From Nitrospira sp. (lineage in GTDB: Bacteria; Nitrospirota; Nitrospiria; Nitrospirales; Nitrospiraceae), in contig JABMDG010000083.1 in assembly GCA_015904045.1 (NCBI GenBank), positions 6,823 through 12,026 on the forward strand: DNA of 5,204 nucleotides. The letters are read 5' to 3'. This document shows positions 1-5,204 of this stretch, one piece after another (position 1 is the stretch's first letter; the number at the start of each line of letters is the position of its first letter). The notes under the pieces were generated by a model, which did not search any database, had not been told where the DNA came from, and saw nothing but the letters and a program-made list of their open reading frames with translations. A program made the translations under genes and the position numbers.

Positions 1-241
1 GCTTGAGATAGAGTGTCCGCTCCCCGGCTGCACCAACCCATCTCACAACAAGCTGGTCGTGATCGAATCCACCCGCGGCAACCGTTAACGCTGAAAATGA
101 AGCCGATTCCGATCGGTCTTCGGCGGCGCCGGACAGGAACATGACCGTGATCCCGAGATCTTCGACCTGAACCAGGCAAGGCTCGCCGCTCGCGGGAAAT
201 TCCTGGCCGAAACAGAGGGCATTGGGCTGGAATTCGGTCAT
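1..241 (-). CDS. N-terminal part of an unidentified protein (runs off the left edge)
   Basis: An open frame starts at ATG 241-239 and continues without a stop for 80 codons to base 1, so only the N-terminus is visible. The translation begins MTEFQPNALCFGQEF and later reads GGFDHDQLVVRW and ERTLYLK. It has no signal peptide or membrane segment and looks like a small beta-rich soluble domain with alternating hydrophobic residues. A modest Shine-Dalgarno match (GGGAA, 253-249) lies 7 nt before the ATG. The gene is co-oriented with AIM24 upstream and separated from it by a 124-bp palindrome. The GGFDHDQL...RTLYL pattern vaguely recalls N-terminal domains fused to M48-type metallopeptidases, but no catalytic motif is in view, so I assign no function. 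The coding call is supported by the uninterrupted frame, the RBS and the gene order; the identity is unknown. Confidence 0.75.
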   Translation of the reverse strand, partial: MTEFQPNALCFGQEFPASGEPCLVQVEDLGITVMFLSGAAEDRSESASFSALTVAAGGFDHDQLVVRWVGAAGERTLYLK

Positions 242-248
242 AGCATGG

Positions 249-253
249 TTCCC
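249..253 (-). promoter_or_regulatory. Probable ribosome binding site for the left-edge gene
   Basis: GGGAA on the minus strand lies 7 nt before ATG 241-239. An out-of-frame ATG at 246-244 reads ATG-CTA-TGA and overlaps the true start, so it could only encode two residues. Confidence 0.4.
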
Positions 254-284
254 GATTGATTCATTGACATCGGAATGTTCTCGC

Positions 285-408
285 GCGGATGCTCAAAACG
301 GCGGCCAACGCGGCCGCAGGCGAGAAAGAACCGCAGGCGTACCCTCTGGGGTACGTTGAGGATTGTTTCGAGCCGAGAACAAAGTTGGCGGGCGTTTTCA
401 GCATCCGC
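285..408. repeat. 124-bp long imperfect palindrome (REP/MITE-like intergenic element)
   Basis: The outer arms 285-309 and 384-408 are reverse complements at 22 of 25 positions; each carries GCGGATGCT at its outer end and GCCAAC at its inner end. The centre is a perfect 7-bp stem CGTACCC/GGGTACG (338-344 and 349-355) with the 4-base loop TCTG. Both are centred on 346.5, and an intermediate block (319-332 against 361-374) also pairs at 10 of 14 positions in the same register, so this is one long hairpin or cruciform. A second local stem GCGGCC/GGCCGC (301-306, 312-317) could compete with the left arm. The right arm ends on the last base of the AIM24 stop codon (TAG, 410-408). No U-tract follows, so it is not a classic terminator. 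The overall look matches a dispersed element I associate with Nitrospira-like genomes, from memory only. Confidence 0.85.
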
Positions 409-1091
409 TACTCGGAGACTGGGATGAACTGCCGTATCCAGTTGCCGAAACTGCCTGGATTGCGGCTCTGAATATAGACCACGCCAGGCCCACGGAACCG
501 GCAGACGAATCCCTCGCCCGACGTGAAACTTGCTACCCACCCGGATGCCGCTTTCTCGATGTTGTAGGACGTAGTCGCCGACCAGGCCACGAGATGGCTG
601 TTGTCAACGATATATTCCTGGTCCGGTTTCAACTCAATCTTGTGAATCGCGCCGAAGCTGTTCAGGATCAGTGTGCCCTTGCCGCTGACCTTCAAAATAA
701 AGAACCCTTCTCCTCCCATGAGCCCCCGGCTCAGACTCTGCATTTTGCTCTCAATATTGACCGACTCGGCACCGGCCAAAAAGCCGTCTTTCTGAACCAG
801 ATACTCATTGACGCCATCAAGCTCCATGATCACGATTTCTCCGGGAACCGTCGGCGCCAGCAAGACTTCGCCGGGCCCGCGGCTTGCCCGCAAGGTTTGG
901 AAGAAAAACTTTTCTCCCGTCAGCAACTTCCTAGACAGCGCGCCGAGGAACCCGCCTTCCATCTTACTTTCGATGTCGATGGTCGGCGACGACGCCACCA
1001 TCGCGCCGGATTCGGCCTTGATGTGCTCGCCAGCCGCCAATTCGACCCGCACCATCGGAAACGCCCCGGGATACAGAATGTCGCTTTTCAT
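408..1091 (-). CDS. AIM24 / TIGR00266 family protein
   Basis: A 227-residue protein of typical length for the AIM24/TIGR00266 family. The family has a beta-rich fold related to the TRAP-like (Trp RNA-binding attenuation protein-like) superfamily. The namesake is a yeast mitochondrial protein; the bacterial function is not settled. Visible signatures are GEHIKAESGAMV (residues 21-32), LLTGEKFFFQ (56-65), the PGEIVIMEL strand (83-91), GGEGFFILKVSGKG (126-139) and the near-terminal SGEGFVCRFRGPGVVYIQSRN (191-211). There is no signal peptide or membrane segment, so it is probably cytoplasmic. The ATG at 1091 is preceded by a strong purine-rich site (AAGGA, 5 nt spacing) and no earlier in-frame start is needed. 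It lies downstream of the amidohydrolase in the same direction, across a 159-bp gap holding an inverted repeat. The stop is TAG at 410-408. The family assignment is firm; the role is unknown. Confidence 0.93.
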   Translation of the reverse strand: MKSDILYPGAFPMVRVELAAGEHIKAESGAMVASSPTIDIESKMEGGFLGALSRKLLTGEKFFFQTLRASRGPGEVLLAPTVPGEIVIMELDGVNEYLVQKDGFLAGAESVNIESKMQSLSRGLMGGEGFFILKVSGKGTLILNSFGAIHKIELKPDQEYIVDNSHLVAWSATTSYNIEKAASGWVASFTSGEGFVCRFRGPGVVYIQSRNPGSFGNWIRQFIPVSE

Positions 1092-2817: not shown

Positions 2818-5204
2818 TTATCTGGACTTGGCAGTTGCGGCAGACGCTTTGAGTGCAGCGGCAACGGCGTGATTGACCGGGATGGCCACCACGACGTCGG
2901 CCTGTGGATCGGCGTCCTGGTCTTGTCCGTCGTGTCCCACGCTATACAGAACGCCTTTCTTCAGATTCACCAGCATCGGGAATCCGGTGTAGGGGTCATA
3001 GAAATCCTGTCCGGCCTTGGCGATGCGCGGCATGAGCTCGGCGTCCTGAGGACCACGGCGTATCCAGGCTTGCAAACTGGCGAGACGCAAATGCGCATCG
3101 GTGTCGACGACCAACCCATTGTAGAGATCCCATGGCGCCAAGGGTTCCAGCCCCACAATGTTTTCGATCGGATTGGCAAAATGGTCCATAACCGTCTTGG
3201 CCGGGAAACGGATGTACTCGCTCCATTTCGGCAAGGCTCCATATCGCCCTTCACCGGCGGCTTTGTACGACGCTTCGTAGTAGTCCGCATACCGGTTGAG
3301 GCGGCGCTGTTCCGGCAAGGGAAGCACCGACGCAATAGCGGCAAGCACCGTTTGCTCTTCACCCTTCTCGGCCTTCAACTTGGCATCGAAGGTCTTTGCC
3401 GCGGAGACCAATTCACTCTGCATCGGCCAACGGAGCGAGAGTTCGCTCTGCTCGAGGGGCCGAACCATCTTGGCCAATCGGCCGAGATATGTTCCGTCGA
3501 CATCAGGCTGGACCAGCAGACCGGAGACCACCGCGATGTCATCGTTCAAGGCTCGGAGCGCCAGCGTTTTCACAGGCAATGTCCTCGCCTGGCTGAGCAC
3601 GATTCGCCACGCCTCCATGTCCGTCTCAATCCGATCCACACCCACGTCAGTGCCCTTCGCAAACCCCTCCGCGATGTAGAGGTGTTGCGTGAGCGTGATC
3701 GCCGCGCATGGCGGACTGGTCGCCTGGCCATAGCCCCAATCTTCGAATGATAGCCGGTGCCACTGTTGATACCGGCCGAGCACGCCTCCAGCTTGATTGA
3801 CCCACCCCTCGATCGTTCCGCGATGTGAGGTAAACCGCCCGACGGGATTCGATTCCTTGAACCATCCGTTCAAGACTTTGCCGGAGGCATTCGATTGCCC
3901 GCCGGACGCATCACCACCGCTTCCTCCAAGACACGCCAGCGCCCTATCTGCGTCTTTGTCGTCGGGCTTCCGCTCAAATCCGGCTTGGATGGGGTCTTGA
4001 TCCATCGACACATCGAAACCCATCAGAACCAAATAGCCATTCTTTCTCAGATCGCCCAGAGTTCGCTGCGGACTCGTGGTCATGCTTCCATATGTGGAAG
4101 ATGGGGGCTCCTCCATGATGACCCAGACCAATCCCACGGCGCCGATTGCCAGCCCGGCGCACAGGCCTGCCAGCACCACCAACCCAATAAGGGACGCCAC
4201 AATGGCACGCGTGGTGGAAAAACAGGACCCGATAAAGGCCGAGATGGTGCGTGCGACGCGGCTTAATCCAAATCGAGTTTTCCGACGCGGCTGTTTCGGG
4301 ATCGGACGTGACCGTGTTTCTGCTCGCGCAGAGTGACCGGATGACTCAAAGAGTACATCGACGGCAGCCGCAACCGCCGATGTACGATGGCTCATGTCTT
4401 GATTATCCCATGTCGGTTCCGGCAACTCGGTTTCCGCGATGGACGACGCGTGTGATTCCCCGACGAATCGGATGGACTCGCCAGGTTGTATCGACCCATC
4501 TTGTTTCGGTGGTAAGTCGAGAAGGGATGCTTTCGCCTCGGTCAGCACCGGCTCTTGCCACAGATGCTGTTTGGTCTGGGGAGGAGGAAGAGGCTCTTCA
4601 GTGAACGGCTTGGCCTCAGCCAGCTCCGGCTCTGGCTGCGAGACCGTTTCCGGAACCGCCGTCTCGGGAGCATCGGTCTGATCCGCTCGGCCACCTGTCA
4701 TCCGATGATCAAAATCGGAGACTGTCACTGGCGAGGCCGGCTCCGCCTGAGATGCGGCCTGGTCTGAATAAGAATCAACCGGAAACTCCGTTGATTCCGG
4801 TTTCAGCGAAAAGATTGTCTCTTCCCGCCGCGTATCAGACAGGGACTCCTCGGCAAACAATGGCGAATAAGCAGGTTCCGGTGAGGAGAGCGATGTTGTC
4901 GGTTCAACTGGTGCCGCAACCTCACCGGCAAATGAAAATACTGGAGGCTGTTGTTCGGTTATCGCTTCGGTTGCATGCTCGTCAGCCAGGGACTGCTCCG
5001 ACGGTACGTCTGCAGGAGAAACTTCCGGCTCTGACACCTGTAGAGCACATAACGGGTCCGCAAGGGAGAAGGCCGACATCTCCGGCTCAGCGCCTGCCGT
5101 GGCTACACTGGATGGTGGAAGACCCTGCTCACTAACCGGTTCCGGATACGACGCCTCGACCGGCTCGGCCTCGCGCAGCAATACGGCTGATTGATCAACG
5201 GGAG
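2818..5204 (-). CDS. Large single-pass membrane protein with acidic disordered N-terminus; 5' end outside the window
   Basis: The frame is open from the window edge to the TAA at 2820-2818 (795 whole codons). The first possible start is a TTG at 5181 without a Shine-Dalgarno site, and coding continues above it, so the true start is probably outside. Numbering from that TTG: residues 1-270 are rich in Pro, Glu, Ser and Ala and almost certainly disordered; 289-311 are strongly basic (RSRPIPKQPRRKTRF); about 327-356 form one membrane helix; 357-787 form a folded domain. The positive-inside rule puts the acidic tail in the cytoplasm and the C-terminal domain in the periplasm. That domain has Cys417 and Cys492, a Gly/Ser linker (419-434), an amphipathic helical region (about 584-645) and a terminal DPYTGFP...GVLYSVGHDGQDQDAD motif (729-758), reminiscent of the Asp-rich ends of type II secretion pseudopilins. 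I do not recognise the family and assign no function. Confidence 0.85.
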   Translation of the reverse strand, partial: PVDQSAVLLREAEPVEASYPEPVSEQGLPPSSVATAGAEPEMSAFSLADPLCALQVSEPEVSPADVPSEQSLADEHATEAITEQQPPVFSFAGEVAAPVEPTTSLSSPEPAYSPLFAEESLSDTRREETIFSLKPESTEFPVDSYSDQAASQAEPASPVTVSDFDHRMTGGRADQTDAPETAVPETVSQPEPELAEAKPFTEEPLPPPQTKQHLWQEPVLTEAKASLLDLPPKQDGSIQPGESIRFVGESHASSIAETELPEPTWDNQDMSHRTSAVAAAVDVLFESSGHSARAETRSRPIPKQPRRKTRFGLSRVARTISAFIGSCFSTTRAIVASLIGLVVLAGLCAGLAIGAVGLVWVIMEEPPSSTYGSMTTSPQRTLGDLRKNGYLVLMGFDVSMDQDPIQAGFERKPDDKDADRALACLGGSGGDASGGQSNASGKVLNGWFKESNPVGRFTSHRGTIEGWVNQAGGVLGRYQQWHRLSFEDWGYGQATSPPCAAITLTQHLYIAEGFAKGTDVGVDRIETDMEAWRIVLSQARTLPVKTLALRALNDDIAVVSGLLVQPDVDGTYLGRLAKMVRPLEQSELSLRWPMQSELVSAAKTFDAKLKAEKGEEQTVLAAIASVLPLPEQRRLNRYADYYEASYKAAGEGRYGALPKWSEYIRFPAKTVMDHFANPIENIVGLEPLAPWDLYNGLVVDTDAHLRLASLQAWIRRGPQDAELMPRIAKAGQDFYDPYTGFPMLVNLKKGVLYSVGHDGQDQDADPQADVVVAIPVNHAVAAALKASAATAKSR

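Follow-up and report, generated by a model that had tools for sequence, protein, structure and literature searches.

A palindrome abutting the AIM24 stop codon in a Nitrospira genome belongs to a dispersed, probably IS5-type MITE family that frequently sits at stop codons

RESULTS

A long imperfect palindrome directly behind AIM24

The sequence analyzed here (the window) is a 5,204-nt stretch of Nitrospira sp. contig JABMDG010000083.1. Read in transcript sense, it holds an AIM24 gene, its TAG stop, a hairpin, 43 nt, and the next co-directional gene (Table 1). The AIM24 gene and its counterpart in Nitrospira sp. UBA2082 are 98% identical, and a Pfam scan of the next gene gave no match. The palindrome is 96.7% identical over 122 nt to a sequence at the orthologous place in another locus (L003).

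Table 1. Coordinates of the palindrome, its parts, and its neighbors in the window
Feature	Positions	Strand	Remarks
Next co-directional gene	2..241	-	Runs off the window; 43 nt beyond the element
Spacer between element and next gene	242..284		Read by eye
Palindrome	285..408	-	124 nt, imperfect; homolog of the MITE left-end hairpin; sense orientation, 3' of AIM24
Internal arm complementary to the left terminal repeat	286..299	-	G.G mismatch, 294 versus 399
Terminal stem-loop CGTACCC/GGGTACG	338..355	-	Strongly conserved across the family
Left terminal repeat, degenerate	394..407	-	CGGATGCTGAAAAC, compared with CAGGATGCTGAAAA in the family
AIM24 stop TAG	408..410	-	Last base also opens the palindrome
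AIM24 gene	408..1091	-	Upstream neighbor; PF01987, E = 5e-73

A sequence-only reading of the window had described three nested blocks sharing one center and adjoining the AIM24 stop. The recount bore out the adjacency, which amounts to a one-base overlap with the TAG at 410 to 408 of the minus strand, as well as two of the blocks: the outer arms (285 to 309 and 384 to 408) pair at 22 of 25 positions, and the inner stem (338 to 344 and 349 to 355) pairs at 7 of 7 around the loop TCTG, both centered on 346.5. The middle block fared less well. Instead of the claimed 10 of 14 pairs, strict symmetry yields 8 of 14 over 321 to 334 (limits that we chose), while an RNA fold pairs part of the block with small offsets. 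The palindrome as a whole is confirmed, with 40 matches in 62 positions (285 to 346) compared with 29 at the next-best center and a mean of 15.8 across all half-integer centers of the window. The predicted RNA fold is stable (−67 kcal/mol, z = −6.45; 0 of 200 shuffles were as good). An alternative stem at 301 to 317, which had been taken to indicate two competing folds, is present in the window, but just 3 of the 26 orthologous copies and 3 of the 38 in the family have it; because of this rarity, two competing folds are unsupported as a feature of the family.

A second long palindrome lies at 1125 to 1244, directly behind the stop codon of an amidohydrolase gene, with 22-nt arms that are 91% complementary; the segment from 1120 to 1250 folds at −68.4 kcal/mol. 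Matches were found at 18 loci, most of them orthologous in position, and the 1.6 Mb of N. defluvii gave a single partial match of 29 nt, so we regard this palindrome as a different, apparently nondispersed sequence.

The element is multicopy across Nitrospirales

Searches with the 124-nt palindrome as the query found copies in all eight Nitrospira genomes examined (2 to 43 matches each). A covariance model, R1, was built from 38 copies of the element and used to search larger sets. At least 15 of 16 genomes were positive, with at least 11 to 118 matches where the element was present, and at least 111 of 117 genomes in a sample of the order carried a copy. These counts are lower bounds, based on scoring no more than 150 (16-genome set) or 30 (117-genome set) candidates per genome. 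Among the candidates scored, no copy was detected in G013 of the smaller set or in G028, G040, G055, G058, G067, and G073 of the larger one; such genomes could serve as natural controls for host effects. A 208-bp unit had no match in plasmid and phage collections.

The 1.6 Mb of N. defluvii yielded at least 60 R1 matches, or at least 58 after removal of two antisense shadows, some of them arranged in tandem. A simple gene caller placed no gene over the midpoint of any of the 58. One tandem group (L166, 15447 to 15834) comprises three head-to-tail copies spaced 131 bp apart, and a second lies at 3836 to 4201 of L172.

A sister subfamily has the borders of a mobile unit

The full unit is ∼207 bp long including the target copies and consists of NTAG, CAGGATGC(G/T)GAAAA, the 124-nt hairpin, ∼60 nt, TTTTTCCGCAGCCTG, and the target copy. 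The NTAG at the foot of the hairpin varies in its first base and is mostly CTAG or TTAG. A distal right end resembling TTTTTCCGCAGCCTG, ∼62 nt beyond the hairpin, was recognized in 10 of the 56 N. defluvii copies scoring at least 40; by the pattern used, it was absent from 46 of the 56 and from 58 of 66 copies in other genomes. Identical 4-bp flanks enclose six of the 10 (CTAG four times, ATAG and TTAG once each). All six clean duplications belong to a subfamily beginning CAGGATGCGG (here, GCGG), whose units start with CAGGATGCGGAAAAA in 14 of 15 cases and finish with TTTTTCCGCAGCCTG in 15 of 15. Identical flanks were found in none of the other four N. defluvii copies in which a distal end was recognized and in none of the eight such copies elsewhere, which are of the TGA type, like that of the window, and include some weakly matching right ends. 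The 4-bp duplication test for the GCTG type to which the window belongs thus stands at 0 of 8, all from other genomes and some with weak right ends.

We probed the borders with a 951-bp query around one N. defluvii unit in 29 genomes of the genus. The unit was returned many times with nearly constant borders (query positions 355 to 562). In G076 the orthologous site is empty: query positions 1 to 359 are joined directly to 562 to 951, and a single CTAG with one extra G stands where N. defluvii has CTAG, the unit, and CTAG. This CTAG supplies the third position of a Val codon and the in-frame TAG stop of the host gene. At the same locus, G142 has a different insertion, and G052 (L303) has nine bases between two CTAGs, a stretch that could be a footprint of excision or deletion.

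The dispersed, MITE-like character suggested by the sequence-only reading is thus supported by copies in many genomes and by the 4-bp duplication and empty site of the sister subfamily. For the GCGG subfamily, the data show mobility as a ∼207-bp unit; by homology, this probably extends to the type found in the window. There, the AIM24 stop and its preceding base form GTAG, the counterpart of the family target NTAG. Reading by eye after position 285 revealed neither a right end nor a second copy of the target, and the window copy is therefore a family member by homology only.

Two other assignments were considered. A TA-only duplication of the IS630/mariner type gave way to the 4-bp repeats (ATAG/ATAG, TTAG/TTAG, and CTAG/CTAG) and the IS5 transposase described below. 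An integron attC site, considered for its position behind stops, was dropped on comparison of the ends CAGG/CCTG with attC motifs.

An IS5-family element shares the terminal repeats

A 1.32-kb N. defluvii element is flanked by ends matching those of the MITE family, and its open frame encodes an IS5-family transposase (NF033581, 278.9 bits against a cutoff of 140) that also matches PF05598 and PF01609. The IS ends read CAGG(C/T)TGCGGAAAAA, with flanks TTAG/TTAG in L252, CTAG/CTAA in L253, and CTAG/CTAG in L254; the L253 and L254 elements are IS5-family relatives with nearly identical ends. Terminal repeats are common to the GCGG subfamily and the IS5-family element (IS ends, CAGGCTGCGGAAAAA), and the GCTG type of the window is further removed from them (CAGGATGCTGAAAA, 12 of 14). 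IS5 prefers and duplicates CTAG-like sites, according to PMC11894529. Only 15 of 57 genomes had a relative of the transposase, several by weak matches. Given the shared ends, an IS5-family transposase would be the likely agent moving the MITE family in trans. Near the IS5-family copy of L254, a sibling 89-bp MITE-like stretch (936 to 1024) has the ends CAGTCTGCTGAAAA and CTAA flanks.

Copies begin at stop codons in excess, with no supported orientation bias

Counting only open frames of at least 100 codons, we found that 28 of 56 N. defluvii copies have a stop codon ending within −1 to +2 of the left edge, at one exact register in 19; the stops were TAG (19), TAA (7), and TGA (2). Among 66 copies from other genomes, 41 had a stop ending within −2 to +2 of the left edge, 37 at the N. 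defluvii register (TAG 26, TAA 10, TGA 5). The latter set derives from 67 loci, mostly through their best-scoring matches (L245 gave none, and three extra matches are shadows or partial); it leaves out N. defluvii, the AIM24-site loci of the eight-genome search, L088, and L090, and some of its copies are orthologous and hence nonindependent. Since only 314 of the 1,806 nongenic YTAR sites in this N. defluvii sequence (1.6 Mb) are stops, their presence at half of the copies is an excess (binomial P = 2e-8, a rough value because the left 4-mers are not all YTAR). The GTAG of the window is itself outside YTAR. The NTAG target contains a stop and is duplicated, and insertion at a TAG therefore leaves the protein intact; TGA at an abutting stop is not predicted by this target unless it was mutated later.

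Stops lie at the left rather than the right hairpin edge by 28 to 2 in N. defluvii and 41 to 3 elsewhere, and this was considered as a sign of selection. The bias was dropped because the unit does not end where the hairpin does on the right: copies with both ends have the stop at the left end in three cases and at the right end in four in N. defluvii, and in two and one, respectively, in other genomes. Between co-directional genes, 25 copies are sense and 15 antisense (P = 0.15). Orientation lends no support to selection on the RNA.

Copies behind AIM24 are unusually conserved and covary

The slot behind AIM24 gave an R1 match at 41 of 80 loci; the other 39 hold degenerate remnants in some cases, other sequence in others, and almost nothing in still others. 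The window and 25 of the 41 matched slots were aligned, the 16 with inserts, deletions, or an offset being dropped. Across these 26 copies, the element has a mean identity of 80.9%, compared with 53.7% at AIM24 third codon positions, and it exceeds the third-position value in 322 of 325 pairs. In a 100-tip tree, the 26 copies fall within a split of 29 (support, 0.72), and the nearest neighbor of each is another AIM24-site copy. Because they group together, these sequences are most simply explained by descent from one old insertion, although resupply from other copies may also produce such grouping.

Thirteen of 45 pairs in the AIM24-site alignment have changed on both sides, a number reached by 12 of 500 shuffles. 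The covariation score is 0.189, compared with 0.101 for shuffles (0 of 500), and sliding the structure gives no more than 0.066; the structure used is the fold of the window itself, so that the test leans towards it. The family alignment of 38 copies (15 AIM24-site copies including the window and 23 others) scores 0.296 against 0.093 shuffled (0 of 500), with an RNAalifold structure derived from the same alignment and a corresponding lean. The outer stem retains a G.G mismatch in 24 of the 26 orthologous and 37 of the 38 family copies. The covariation may come partly from palindrome-correcting mutation. The element is thus neither single copy nor free of covariation between its arms, and the proposal of a structured RNA at the 3' end of the AIM24 transcript is consistent with the covariation and unusual conservation.

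A general need for a hairpin in this slot is unsupported. Unmatched slots of at least 40 nt (n = 31, with seven shorter slots, L041, and L075 left out) have a mean fold z score of −1.5, and eight are below −3; the mean for slots with an R1 match is −2.4. Unrelated inverted sequences, some with strong folds, occupy the slot at L012, L013, L027, L037, and L039; at L042 to L044 and L079; and at L049, L051, and L058. A longer form of the element occurs behind AIM24 at L006, L007, L029, L050, L062, L065, L071, L073, L074, and L077, where an extra ∼50-nt block beside the central loop mostly contains GAGCTGTCTTGGCAGCTC or a close variant. A further block lies in the other arm at L009, L035, and L047.

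Shared slots in other likely operons

Genomes with few copies hold several of them at shared places. Copies lie behind a nuoD-like gene at L232, L233, and L239 (in L233, the scan covered PF00346 and a following nuoG-like gene), behind a gene for a FAD-binding protein and before a CoA-ligase gene at five loci (L229 to L231, L243, and L247; domains scanned in L229), and between the genes for ribosomal proteins L23 and L2 at L250 and L251 (scanned in L251). Others lie behind purH and before a purD-like gene in N. defluvii and L228 (scanned in L228) and behind the CTP synthase gene and before a DAHP-synthase-like gene at L087, with a homologous upstream end in N. defluvii. Their position inside likely operons disfavors full termination.

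DISCUSSION

The palindrome in the window is, we believe with reasonable assurance, a member of a nonautonomous IS5-type MITE family that survives at stop codons, and some copies have probably been retained as RNA hairpins. An IS5-family transposase would move the unit in trans. Insertion at the TAG of a gene would duplicate NTAG, so that the protein stays intact and the element starts right behind it, and insertions inside genes would presumably be lost. Copies of the GCTG type, including that of the window, may be related units whose right parts were lost or have decayed. Some old insertions, among them the one behind AIM24, persist in distant species, where compensatory changes maintain the hairpin. 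Retained copies would most likely form 3'-UTR or intercistronic RNA hairpins that stabilize, process (through an RNase III-type activity), or insulate the upstream message; because several lie in likely operons (L23|L2 and purH|purD), they would act without ending transcription. We give both the MITE assignment and domestication less weight because clean duplications are confined to GCGG units and no orientation bias held up.

A purely selfish MITE, for which stops are merely harmless sites and whose structure reflects within-genome copying and palindrome-correcting mutation without host function, is a serious contender that could well be correct, even if we lean against it. Such an element would account for the recent multicopy 207-bp units with clean duplications, for stop codons as safe targets, for the empty site and the different insertion at the same stop in close relatives, and for the near-equal use of left and right ends by full units that meet stops. 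It accounts less readily for AIM24-site copies that group (26 in the split of 29, 0.72) and yet are 81% identical where third positions are 54% identical, or for the G.G mismatch that persists in 24 of 26 although simple correction of the palindrome would remove it.

We consider it unlikely that the copies are intrinsic, possibly bidirectional terminators placed behind genes by selection. Many copies do lie right behind stops and have a GC-rich stem followed by a T-tract in their arms, but this T-tract is inside the outer stem rather than free, and no terminator-like site was found on either strand at 285 to 408. Copies between likely operon partners (L23|L2 and purH|purD), dispersal, and target duplications also speak against termination. 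Still less probable is a conserved cis-regulatory RNA or small RNA family that is not mobile DNA. The strong covariation and shared slots would suit it, but the window has no match to Rfam 15 models at the gathering score, genomes hold many nonorthologous copies, and the sister subfamily has transposon ends and an empty site.

The sequence-only reading had also named REP/BIME repeats, and although the TAG foot, the asymmetric hairpin with its kept mismatch, the tandem groups, and the ability of GTAG-type REPs to supply TAG stops (PMC3733652) fit a repeat spread by RAYT (a Y1 HUH tyrosine transposase), we reject RAYT as the engine and give this origin almost no credence, since PF01797 was found in 9 of 16 genomes and is absent from 7 that carry copies (G002, G003, G004, G006, G008, G015, and G016, with at least 11, 50, 72, 22, 110, 17, and 19, respectively; some of these assemblies are incomplete, but G003 and G004 are recorded as whole chromosomes), the GCGG subfamily has 4-bp duplications and IS5-type ends, and the unit, at 124 to 207 bp, is far longer than a REP of 20 to 40 bp and has an NTAG foot with a variable first base in place of a GTAG or CGTC tag.

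A bolder extension of the preferred MITE interpretation, which we find possible but doubtful, is that an IS5-derived MITE colonized the whole order by using stops as reusable safe sites and that copies were domesticated as selected intercistronic RNA elements tuning or processing polycistronic mRNA in core operons (L23|L2, purH|purD, nuoD|nuoG-like, CTP synthase|DAHP-synthase-like, and AIM24).

The family offers a clean, testable case of a transposable element made harmless by its choice of target, the duplicated target itself carrying the stop. Its shared-slot copies in core operons of nitrifiers allow a host benefit of palindromic repeats to be tested directly, by a comparison of slots that have the hairpin with slots that lack it. 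The family also indicates a source of false short open reading frames and of repeated DNA common to Nitrospira genomes.

IS5-type MITEs are a known kind of element, and this family is a new, order-wide variant of them; a search of the open-licence PMC literature found no paper describing it. Like IS5-family insertion sequences and their MITEs, it has terminal repeats, a 4-bp CTAG-like duplication, and the form of a short noncoding derivative. Unlike the N. defluvii IS5 element, in which no such structure was seen on reading, it has a long covarying hairpin at one end, and it differs from IS5-type MITEs in its strong stop-codon excess, order-wide spread, and partial retention at shared slots. 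GTAG-tagged REPs are likewise palindromes near the 3' ends of open reading frames, with a foot that can supply a TAG stop, but as described in PMC3733652 they are 20 to 40 bp long and RAYT linked, whereas the Nitrospira element measures 124 to 207 bp, needs no RAYT, and has IS5-type ends and duplications in its sister subfamily. PMC2229807 provides the remaining comparisons. ERIC/IRU is also an intergenic MITE-like unit (127 bp), transcribed and with an orientation-dependent effect on mRNA; it is enterobacterial, and a TA motif is reported for most such elements. Correia/NEMIS and RUP are MITEs of other hosts in the same source, which ties RUP to IS630-Spn1 through terminal repeats, so that its ends are of the IS630/TA type and those of the Nitrospira family of the IS5/CTAG type. 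NEMIS RNA hairpins have been proposed as RNase III targets (PMC2229807). ERIC and NEMIS are precedents for an RNA role like that proposed for the retained hairpins, and GTAG REPs for the provision of stop codons.
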